A stretch of DNA of 64,000 bases from Cryphonectria parasitica EP155. Taxonomy: Eukaryota; Ascomycota; Sordariomycetes; Diaporthales; Cryphonectriaceae. The notes under the pieces were generated by a model. That model saw only the letters and a list, made by a program, of their open reading frames with translations, made no database searches and had not been told where the DNA came from. Both the position numbers and the translations under genes were made by a program. Location: positions 2,232,001-2,296,000 of the forward strand of contig NW_024468913.1 in the NCBI RefSeq assembly GCF_011745365.1, given 5' to 3'. This document shows, piece by piece, positions 57,003-60,934 of this stretch; position 1 is the stretch's first letter, and each line of letters opens with the position of its first letter.

Positions 57003-60000
57003 ATGGCCGAGGAAGTCTACGACGGTGCCATTGGCATTGATCTGGGTACGTTCTGACATGGTTTCCGCGTCGTCGTCGTCGCGGCGTCTTCTTGTTGTCC
57101 GACGAGAAAAGCTGTCGTCGTCCTCGCGCTACAGGACTTGCATAGGATATAATCGCTGACTTGTACTCTCTCTCTCACACAACAGGAACCACCTACTCCT
57201 GCGTGGCCACCTACGAGGGCAACAATGTCGAGATCATCGCCAACGAGCAGGGCTCTTTCACCACCCCTTCGTTCGTCTCTTTCACCGAGCAGGAGCGATT
57301 AATCGGTGAGGCTGCCAAGAACCAGGCTGCCATGAACCCCGTCAACACCGTCTTCGATGTCAAGTAGGTTGCTCTCGGGCACTGCATAGCCCTAACGTCA
57401 ATAAGGAGTACAGTTTCTGATAACAGCATCTTGCAGGCGTCTGATCGGTCGCCGCTTCGATGACCCCACCGTCAAGAAGGACATGGAGTCCTGGCCCTTC
57501 AAGGTCGTCGATGACGAGGGCAACCCCAAGGTTCAGGTCGAGTACCTGGGCGAGACCAAGCAGTTCTCCCCCCAGGAGATCTCTGCCATGGTTCTTGTCA
57601 AGGTAAGATCCCCTGCTTCTGTAACGATTACTACAGAGACAGGCGCTAATGATTTTCCCCCGCCAAACAGATGAAGGAGATTGCCGAGACCAAGCTGGGC
57701 AAGAAGGTCGAGAAGGCCGTCATCACCGTCCCCGCCTACTTCAACGACAACCAGCGTCAGGCCACCAAGGATGCTGGATCCATCTCTGGTCTTAACGTCC
57801 TCCGTATCATCAACGAGCCCACTGCTGCTGCCATTGCCTACGGTCTTGGCTCCAATAAGTCCAACAAGGAGCGTAACGTCCTGATCTACGATCTGGGCGG
57901 TGGTACCTTCGATGTCTCCCTGCTTAACATCCAGGGTGGCGTGTTCACCGTCAAGGCTACTGCTGGTGACACCCACTTGGGTGGTCAGGACTTCGACACC
58001 AACCTGCTGGACCACTGCAAGAAGGAATTCACTCGCAAGTTCAAGAAGGACCTGTCGGGCGATGCCCGTGCCCTCCGTCGTCTCCGCACTGCTTGCGAGC
58101 GTGCCAAGCGTACCCTGTCCAGCGGTGCCCAGGCCACCATTGAGATCGACTCCCTCTTCGATGGCGAGGATTTCAACATGCAGATTACCCGTGCCCGTTT
58201 TGAGGACCTCAACGCCAAGGCTTTCACCGGCACTCTCGACCCCGTGACCCAGGTCCTCAAGGATGCCAACATCGAGAAGTCTGGCGTTGACGAGATTGTT
58301 CTTGTCGGTGGCTCCACCCGTATTCCCAAGATCCAGAAGCTTCTGAGCGACTACTTCGACGGCAAGAAGCTCGAGAAGTCCATCAACCCCGATGAGGCTG
58401 TTGCCTACGGTGCTGCCGTCCAGGCCGGTATCCTCTCTGGCAAGGCCACTTCTGCTGATACCGCCGACCTCCTCCTGCTTGACGTCGTCCCTCTGTCCCT
58501 CGGTGTCGCCATGGAGGGTAACATCTTTGCTCCTGTCGTTCCTCGCGGCAACACAGTTCCTACTCTCAAGAAGTTCGTGATCCTATCCCTCTGGTGTTGA
58601 GAGAAGACGTTACTAACATGCCATGACTAGGGTTCGTATTAACCGATTTTTTTCAAGTCTCGGCTTCCCCTTTCCTACATTTTTCAGTTTTCCCATTTGC
58701 CCCTTCCCTCCGCCAATACCCAGCCAAAACATGGGCGACTTTTTGTTGAGCCCATGTTTTGGCTGGGTTCCGGACTGTCTACTTTCTCTACTCTTCATCC
58801 CCCCCCCCCCCTTTCTCTACTCTTCATCCCCCCTTGGTAAAGACGACTCTGCAACTCTGGAACCATGGATCTCCTCTCTCTCTCTTGATCGCCATGGTCT
58901 AGCGCTGCCTGTCCATCGCCGTCGAGAAGAATCCTCTCTTCGACCTGGTCTTCTTTGATGAGGATATTCTCCGGGAGATCACCACTGCTGCCAGCCTATC
59001 CTTCTGTCCCGGTCTGATGGACGTCCTCCAAGCTGCCTCACCACCTCCGGTCAGCTTCTTCAAACTTCTCCCTACTGCTCACCTCAACCGCTGGGGTATC
59101 TACGCTCTCGTCCTGGAGAAAATTGAGGATTCTACGCTCGTTTACATTGGCTCAGCTACAAATGCTCGCGGAGGAGTAAAAGAACGCTGGACGCTCTACG
59201 ACCGGTGTAACCGTCGCAGGCCTCATGTTACCGCCAAATCATGCCCAAGCAATGTCAAGGAGGCTCTCAACAATGGCTACCGGATAGTTTCCAAAGGTCT
59301 CCTTGCGTGGTGTCCTATCCCTTCAGCTAAGGATGTTCCACGGAGGCGTGTGCTATCCTACGCTTTTGAAGCCATGTTTAGCTATCTCTTCTGGGCCCTG
59401 CAAAGCAAAACCATGGATTCCGAGATAATGTCCTGCTGTCCTTGGTCGCCCCAATCCTTCACCTACCGCGGTGCTTGCAGCCACAACGCTCTGAAAGACC
59501 TGATCAAGGGCCATTTCGACTTGACCGCCGAGCAGCTCGAGATGCTCGCCCAACAAAGCGCCAAGAGCATCAAATCCTCCAAGCAGCGCTACAAGGCTCA
59601 GCGTAAAGCTGAAGATCCAGACGGCGTCCATCAGGCGAGCGCAGATGATTATGCCCGCATTAAAGCTAAGGATCCTGAGGGCCACCGGCAGTACTATCAA
59701 GACAAATATCAGCGTACCAAGACGGAGTCGCCCGAGCTGATCAAGAAATGGTCTGCTGATCGTCGAGCGCGCGTCATGGTCGATCCTGTGCTCTATGCTC
59801 GTGAGAGGGCTGCCGATAAGAAGCGCTACAAGATCAGCCGGTCCGCGATGCTGAAAGCCAAGGCATTCTACTGCGAAACATGTCAAAGAGCCTGTGCAAA
59901 GCAATCTGAGTTCGACCGTCTCAACGCCTCGAAAAGACACGTCAAGAAAGTCAAGGACAAGGCTGCTGGCACAGTCTTCGAGTATCAGTGTCAATTCTGT

Positions 60001-60934
60001 CCCTATGGTACATCCACCTGGCGCAACTATCGCGAGCACCGAAAAACCCACGGTCTCGGGGATTCGAACATGGACGAAGTCTCGACGTAGATCATCGTGA
60101 TCTCAATATCATTACCCAGGACTTTTGGACCACGACACCAGCTTCAGCTTCTCAGGACTACACTTCTCACTTTTTCCTTCTCACTTTTTCCTTTCTCACT
60201 TTTTCCTTTCTCACTTTTTCCTTTCTCACTTTTTCCTTTCTCACTTTTTCCTTTCTCACTTTTTCCTTTCTCACTTTTTCCTTTCTCACTTTTTCCTTTC
60301 TCACTTTTTCCTTTCTCACTTTTTCCTTCAACACAGCTCTAATACAACTTGCTAATTCATCTTGGAACCACACATCTAGCGTACCTTCACTACTGTGGCC
60401 GACAACCAGCAGACTGTTCAATTCCCTGTGGTGCAGGGTGAGAGAACCAATTGCGAGGACAACACCTCTCTGGGTGAATTTACCCTGGCTCCTATCCCGC
60501 CTATGAAGGCTGGTGAGCCCGTCCTTGAGGTCGTCTTCGAGGTCGACGTCAACGGTATCCTGAAGGTCACGGCTACCGAGAAGACCTCCGGCCGCAGTGC
60601 CAACATCACCATCTCCAACTCTGTCGGCAAGCTGTCCAGCGCTGAGATCGAGAACATGATCAGCGACGCTGAGAAGTTCAAGTCCAACGACGAGGCCTTC
60701 AGCAAGCGCTTCGAGGCCAAGCAGCAGCTCGAGTCCTACATTACCCGTGTCGAGGATATCATCTCCGACCCTACCCTGTCCCTGAAGCTGAAGCGCGGCC
60801 AGAAGGAGAAGATCGAGCAGACCCTGAGCGAGGCCATGTCTCAGCTCGAGCTCGAGGACTCCAGCGCCGACGATCTGAAGAAGAAGGAGCTGGCCCTGAA
60901 GAGGCTCGTGACCAAGGCCATGTCCTCCCGATAA
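57003..60934 (+). CDS. SSB1: Ribosome-associated Hsp70 of the SSB type, carrying an intron-borne GIY-YIG insertion
   Basis: Exons are 57003-57045, 57186-57363, 57437-57602, 57671-58572, the single base 58631, and 60380-60934. They give 614 aa, the normal Ssb length. Ssb binds nascent chains at the ribosome with the Zuotin/Ssz1 complex. ATPase signatures are intact: [27 protein letters not shown] and [17 protein letters not shown]. The substrate domain ends in [11 protein letters not shown]; the absence of an EEVD tail and the family-specific sequence separate it from Ssa. The coding sequence is interrupted after TVPTLK by a normal 58-nt intron (58573-58630, TACTAAC branch), one G, and a 1748-nt second intron-like element (58632-60379). 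Only removal of both with retention of the G gives K-K-R-T-F-T-T-V, as in other Ssb proteins. Codon use is strongly biased to C-ending codons, indicating high expression. Confidence 0.9.
58573..58630 (+). other. Ordinary spliceosomal intron of SSB1 (upstream half of tandem intron)
   Basis: 58 nt, donor GTTCGT, perfect TACTAAC branch point at 58611-58617, acceptor CTAG. It is followed by one exonic G and then directly by the donor of the next intron. Confidence 0.8.
58718..58768. repeat. Perfect 19-bp inverted repeat (hairpin, 13-nt loop)
   Basis: Arms 58718-58736 and 58750-58768 are perfect reverse complements (ACCCAGCCAAAACATGGGC and its partner) separated by GACTTTTTGTTGA. It lies in the 5' part of the insertion, upstream of the nuclease ORF. 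It could fold in the pre-mRNA. Confidence 0.85.
58782..58836. repeat. Direct duplication of CTTTCTCTACTCTTCATCCC with C13 tract
   Basis: Two copies, starting at 58782 and 58811, 29 bp apart, joined by a run of 13 C (58799-58811). Confidence 0.8.
59017..60090 (+). CDS. GIY-YIG endonuclease with C2H2 zinc finger, homing-endonuclease-like
   Basis: 357 aa from the first ATG at 59017. The GIY-YIG nuclease core is clear: [11 protein letters not shown] (GIY, residues 27-29), [10 protein letters not shown] (YIG, 43-45), the conserved Arg in GGVKERW (R57) and the catalytic Glu in LSYAFEAMF (E118). Residues about 190-275 contain several basic repeats of the type KAxDPExxxQYYxDKYxRxK, likely DNA-binding helices. 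The C-terminus has a partial zinc finger (C286, C289, H308) and a canonical C2H2 finger (C325, C328, H341, H345). The frame is open about 38 codons upstream to a TAG at 58900-58902 and reads like protein ([20 protein letters not shown]), so the true N-terminus may be longer and spliced. It probably cuts an intron-less SSB1 allele or a similar site. That target is inference. Confidence 0.8.
   Translation: MDVLQAASPPPVSFFKLLPTAHLNRWGIYALVLEKIEDSTLVYIGSATNARGGVKERWTLYDRCNRRRPHVTAKSCPSNVKEALNNGYRIVSKGLLAWCPIPSAKDVPRRRVLSYAFEAMFSYLFWALQSKTMDSEIMSCCPWSPQSFTYRGACSHNALKDLIKGHFDLTAEQLEMLAQQSAKSIKSSKQRYKAQRKAEDPDGVHQASADDYARIKAKDPEGHRQYYQDKYQRTKTESPELIKKWSADRRARVMVDPVLYARERAADKKRYKISRSAMLKAKAFYCETCQRACAKQSEFDRLNASKRHVKKVKDKAAGTVFEYQCQFCPYGTSTWRNYREHRKTHGLGDSNMDEVST
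60167..60329. repeat. 15-bp pyrimidine minisatellite, about 11 copies
   Basis: The unit TCACTTTTTCCTTTC is repeated nearly perfectly head to tail. It lies between the nuclease stop codon and the 3' splice site and forms a 160-nt pyrimidine tract on the transcript strand. All three plus frames and one minus frame stay open through it, producing artefactual ORFs. Confidence 0.95.

Follow-up and report, generated by a model that had tools for sequence, protein, structure and literature searches.

A GIY-YIG endonuclease gene in a spliceosomal-type intron of the nuclear SSB1 gene of Cryphonectria parasitica: a probable homing intron, apparently in decay

The SSB1 locus

The window considered here is a 64,000-nt stretch of the 43.8-Mb, 17-contig genome of the ascomycete Cryphonectria parasitica EP155 (contig NW_024468913.1, positions 2,232,001 to 2,296,000 of the forward strand). 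Its subject is the nuclear Hsp70 gene SSB1, one of whose introns carries the gene of a GIY-YIG endonuclease with C2H2 zinc fingers; all of the coding features of this locus lie on the + strand. SSB1 exons 1-4 (57003-57045, 57186-57363, 57437-57602 and 57671-58572), separated by introns within 57003..58572, join to a translation that is open through codon 430 and contains the HSP70 domain. There follow a 58-nt GT-AG intron (58573..58630; GTTCGT...CTAG), a one-base exon, G58631, and a 1748-nt GT-AG intron (58632..60379) with the same GTTCGT...CTAG ends, which carries the endonuclease gene. The last exon, open and conserved, runs from R431 to the stop (60380..60934). A preliminary description of this DNA had recognized the 1748-nt GT...AG insertion in SSB1, which is indeed present, and had placed it one base inside an exon: a single base does precede the insert, and the 58-nt intron lies on the other side of that base.

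The lone G is the third base of codon K430, and the reading frame requires it. When four splicing outcomes for the short intron, the G and the long intron are translated, only one yields an intact product: removal of both introns with retention of the G generates an open SSB1 of 614 amino acids. Skipping the G leads to a stop at codon 472, retaining the short intron to a stop at codon 439, and retaining the insert to a stop at codon 539. Against the solved SSB1 chains 7olc and 5tky (presumably of Chaetomium thermophilum), the last 248 residues of this product align without a gap, with TLKKRTFTTV at the junction in place of TIKKRTFTTV. As a query, the last exon retrieves itself and, at 37-43% identity, three other Hsp70 stretches, so that no second SSB1 is recognized with it in the 43.8 Mb.

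A branch-point-like motif begins 18 nt before the end of the short intron (CTAAC) and 28 nt before the end of the long one (CTAAT, with another CTAAT at 41 nt); the nearest such motifs of the other three SSB1 introns stand 30, 20 and 25 nt before their ends. Both introns would be spliced out in vivo, and stepwise splicing is likely: prior removal of the short intron generates AAG|GTTCGT, and thus a good donor for the long one. One-base exons have been reported in Arabidopsis (PMC4674806) and in Fusarium CYP621A, the latter with the same AGGGT string and with SRA reads in support (PMC12940212).

No group I or group II intron is detected at this locus: covariance models from Rfam give no match at the gathering score in the window and none at E up to 5 in 58500-60500. 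That the insert is a spliceosomal-type intron with a damaged GIY-YIG gene, lodged in an otherwise intact SSB1, is the firmest of the conclusions to be offered here, and we regard it as very probable. To that extent the preliminary description is borne out: a GIY-YIG-type endonuclease gene lies within a spliceosomal-type intron, and the host gene is nuclear and conserved.

(Technical note: the long intron also contains two repeats, to neither of which a strand is assigned. At 58718..58768, in the intron leader, is an inverted repeat with perfectly matched 19-nt arms around a 13-nt loop. This repeat is found nowhere else in the genome with up to 2 mismatches allowed; four chance miRNA matches fall on it in the covariance-model search of 58500-60500 at E up to 5. 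The leader fold is more stable than that of shuffled sequences (z -3.07). The repeat might serve in binding, in transcription or in splicing, or it might be a relic. A pyrimidine-rich tandem repeat of 15 nt, in 11 copies, occupies 60164..60328, after the stop of the nuclease frame and ahead of the acceptor.)

The endonuclease gene

The endonuclease is encoded by an open frame of 395 codons (58903..60087; stop at 60088-60090); the other two frames of the insert contain 15 and 17 stops. A search for relatives of the nuclease protein, which the preliminary description had proposed, was made in three forms that returned 15, 114 and 31 proteins, 142 of them distinct, and the open frame is therefore not a product of chance. 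Two alignments are referred to below: A1, with 16 rows (the window copy and 15 relatives), and the wider A3, with 52.

Residues Y67, Y81, G83, R95 and E156 of the frame are invariant in 16/16 rows of A1; in A3 the first four are present in 52/52 rows and E156 in 51/52. The residues that define the GIY-YIG superfamily (the GIY tyrosine, the YIG tyrosine, the arginine and the catalytic glutamate) are thus all found, in that order; the roles of the tyrosine pair, the arginine and the glutamate are taken to be those generally assigned to them. In the numbering of the 357-residue open reading frame (ORF) of the preliminary description they are residues 29, 43, 45, 57 and 118, and its identification of GIY, YIG, R57 and E118 was correct. 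In a structural comparison the five best rows are all GIY-YIG enzymes, Slx1, UvrC and R.Eco29kI among them, at low Z (2.9-4.5) and with different tails and roles. The Pfam family PF01541 gives no match to the window protein at E 1, nor is it among the best 25 of 45 families when all 16 rows of A1 are considered; members of a divergent family can escape this model. (The genome's only other GIY-YIG match, at G000:C1:7075622-7078828, lies above the Pfam cut-off and by eye resembles a gene of the Slx1 type followed by a cysteine-rich ORF.)

The 357-residue ORF (59017-60087) is not itself the gene. It lies inside the 395-codon frame, and its ATG at 59017 specifies an internal methionine, in place of which the 15 other rows of A1 have leucine (11) or phenylalanine (4); upstream of it the conserved N-terminus continues for about 50 residues. 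It is this N-terminus that is broken in the window copy (58865..58902). Relatives P0001 and P0005 start 12 and 17 residues ahead of the 395-codon frame; here, the ATG at 58865 does not read in the main frame, and the A1 comparison places an in-frame TAG, at 58900-58902, where the family has a nearly invariant tryptophan. A six-frame search with relative P0010 likewise crossed one TAG at that position. The damage extends to the DNA-binding tail: the C2H2 finger noted in the preliminary description exists, but as one of two, and the first has leucine where 48/52 rows of A3 keep a zinc-ligand histidine. Because its start is broken, its tryptophan codon replaced by TAG and a zinc ligand of finger 1 lost, the window's endonuclease is probably inactive; that the 395-codon frame is still open suggests that the loss is recent. 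It is very doubtful that this copy can still home.

Relatives and their host genes

Ten of the 142 relatives carry a species name, and the host genes described here are theirs. Five of the ten species, when looked up, proved to be Pezizomycotina of the Sordariomycetes, Leotiomycetes, Dothideomycetes and Eurotiomycetes, and we take the other five to be ascomycetes as well. Four of the ten named relatives are annotated as fusions, with a host domain and the nuclease in one protein. In P0017, the SSB1 of Diaporthe eres, the HSP70 domain occupies residues 9-431 and the nuclease follows; in P0092, an Hsp70 of Talaromyces amestolkiae, the nuclease comes first and HSP70 begins at residue 409. The other two are aconitases, broken at two different sites: after LANACG in P0045 (Elasticomyces elasticus) and after GWASPK in P0074 (Lachnellula subtilissima). 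P0031 is named carbamoyl-phosphate synthase cpa2 with no such domain detected, and the remaining five are annotated as hypothetical. The fusions can be read as gene models in which a host exon and a nuclease encoded within an intron were run together.

P0017 departs from Hsp70 after Lys430, the codon after which the long intron begins in the window. The SSB1 proteins of C. parasitica and D. eres are 93.8% identical across 433 amino acids, but identity between their nucleases is no more than 45%. A quick tree with 113 rows places the two nucleases in a 10-row clade (SH-aLRT 98), within which the SSB1 codon-430 site is known for these two, and from which the aconitase, cpa2-named and Talaromyces nucleases are excluded. 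P0074 and P0031 stand together in one 17-row clade (96) despite their different host names. The pattern fits site-specific lineages with an occasional change of target. The site common to the two SSB1 genes could also reflect descent from one SSB1 insertion, a possibility that is taken up below as part of a wider alternative. The annotation of relatives in other host genes, the two aconitase sites and the mixed 17-row clade nevertheless imply that the family moved between targets at some time.

P0131 (Aureobasidium melanogenum, 608 amino acids) has a long C-terminal extension past the fingers that matches no Pfam family at E 0.01; it may be a copy put to a new use, or one more fusion made by a gene model. 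P0006 and P0014, on contigs of 54 and 72 kb, stop before the zinc fingers and are possibly further decaying copies. No relative was confirmed in viral contigs.

Known systems

Among the closest counterparts of the long intron are viral ones. Spliceosomal introns of mirusviruses that contain GIY-YIG, HNH and other endonucleases were described in 2025 and named shintrons, and their authors wrote that they knew of no earlier observation of the combination (PMC12768974). As there described, shintrons are GT-AG introns without a self-splicing signature, carry a GIY-YIG or other homing-type endonuclease gene and prefer certain conserved target genes, and their homing is likewise deduced rather than demonstrated. 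The intron of SSB1 has these structural features (GT-AG ends, no group I or group II signature and a homing-type endonuclease gene, its N-terminus broken). It differs in its host, a fungal nuclear housekeeping gene, in the C2H2 tail of its nuclease and in the decay of this copy. It would be, then, a shintron-like structure in a new kind of genome. The suggestion in the preliminary description that the insert could define a distinct class of nuclear mobile intron consequently needs qualification: the mirusvirus precedent means that the class is not wholly new, while searches of one open-access library (most subscription papers and preprints lie outside it) gave, among the papers listed, no report of an endonuclease-bearing spliceosomal intron in a cellular nuclear protein gene.

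Other systems resemble the insert in part. The GIY-YIG homing endonucleases of group I introns, in fungal mitochondria and phages, have the same set of nuclease motifs and the expected homing logic; the SSB1 insert differs in its nuclear gene and spliceosomal splice sites, with no group I or group II signature detected. Introners are known as mobile spliceosomal introns of fungal nuclear genes, multi-copy and near-identical. The insert is instead a single copy with an endonuclease gene: in the genome its DNA finds no match beyond itself and its own inverted repeat (a search that gives lower bounds), and the many similar copies expected of an introner-like element are not seen. (Introner-like elements of fungi are named in PMC11889510.) Stwintrons (PMC8469720) are pairs of close introns for which stepwise splicing is likely, as it is here; there, the internal intron splits one of the splice signals of the external intron, while the two introns of SSB1 are whole and separated by exon base 58631. 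Fusarium CYP621A has AG|G|GT in common with SSB1 here, but the text available describes no gene cargo in its introns (PMC12940212).

A homing intron, a passenger or an accident?

What is the insert? The reading that we favor, at a probability of roughly 0.75, makes it a spliceosomal homing intron of a nuclear gene, with GT-AG ends and a GIY-YIG homing-endonuclease gene, placed at a conserved codon of a housekeeping gene. The nuclease domain, with its helical and zinc-finger DNA-binding tail, would cut intron-free SSB1 alleles around codons K430/R431; repair of the break would copy the intron-bearing allele into the cut site; and the spliceosome would remove the intron from pre-mRNA, sparing the host protein. 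What sequence provides is the anatomy of the intron, a single and otherwise intact SSB1, the conserved catalytic residues of the family and the annotated fusions to housekeeping proteins, one of them at the same SSB1 codon; splicing in vivo, cleavage and homing are inferred. It is for the family that homing appears probable. The proposal in the preliminary description of a selfish homing element needs correction for the window copy, which probably no longer homes by itself. That copy appears to be decaying, and its persistence is probably explained by splicing, which renders it harmless.

An alternative that we consider unlikely is that the intron and its nuclease were gained once, by an ancestor, and have been inherited vertically ever since, as an old and immobile passenger whose gene is now a relic, with the shared SSB1 site due to descent. 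The broken state of the window copy and its singularity in this genome suit such a history, and the disparity between nuclease and SSB1 identities allows a long separate residence. It accommodates poorly the related nucleases that are annotated in other host genes, with their two aconitase sites, and the clade in which nucleases with different host names are mixed. Far less credible is a harmful or artificial insertion, whether an assembly artefact or a disruption that truncates SSB1. One-base exons are rare, it is true, and few introns of fungi reach a length such as 1748 nt; but the last exon remains open and conserved up to its stop, no second SSB1 is found in the genome, the splice motifs are good, Fusarium offers its precedent for the one-base exon, and the D. 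eres nuclease sits at the same codon.

Might the nuclease instead be made as a fusion to SSB1? The string TCTAG|CG at the broken tryptophan codon (58898-58902) is also that of the long intron's own acceptor (60375-60379), so that an in-frame splice between SSB1 and the nuclease is possible. If 58902 (TCTAG|CGC) served as an alternative acceptor for the one-base exon, SSB1 residues 1-430 would be placed in frame with the nuclease, and the TAG would be part of an acceptor instead of a fatal stop. The join has a pyrimidine tract and, 17 nt before the end, a branch-point-like motif, and the D. eres gene model is just such a fusion. It is, however, a gene model only; the relatives have tryptophan and a start of their own at this place; and the join is unremarkable by count, since 6 of the 13 AG dinucleotides in 58661-59120 equally give an in-frame join without an early stop. 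We consider a fusion product highly improbable.

Implications

The question of how genomes acquire spliceosomal introns is a long-standing one. A homing endonuclease in a spliceosomal intron of a cellular housekeeping gene would offer a concrete and testable route, at the level of DNA, by which introns are both gained and moved, and would extend the shintron idea from giant viruses to host chromosomes. It may also explain some odd fungal gene models in the public databases, in which Hsp70 or aconitase is fused to a zinc-finger nuclease. One can go further and propose, with somewhat better than even confidence, that the nuclear genomes of filamentous ascomycetes contain a broad class of mobile introns. 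Guided by a GIY-YIG/zinc-finger endonuclease, these would home to conserved codons in housekeeping genes (SSB1, another Hsp70, aconitase, perhaps carbamoyl-phosphate synthase), and the spliceosome would excise them. Endonuclease-driven DNA repair would then be a direct means of spliceosomal intron gain in cellular genomes.
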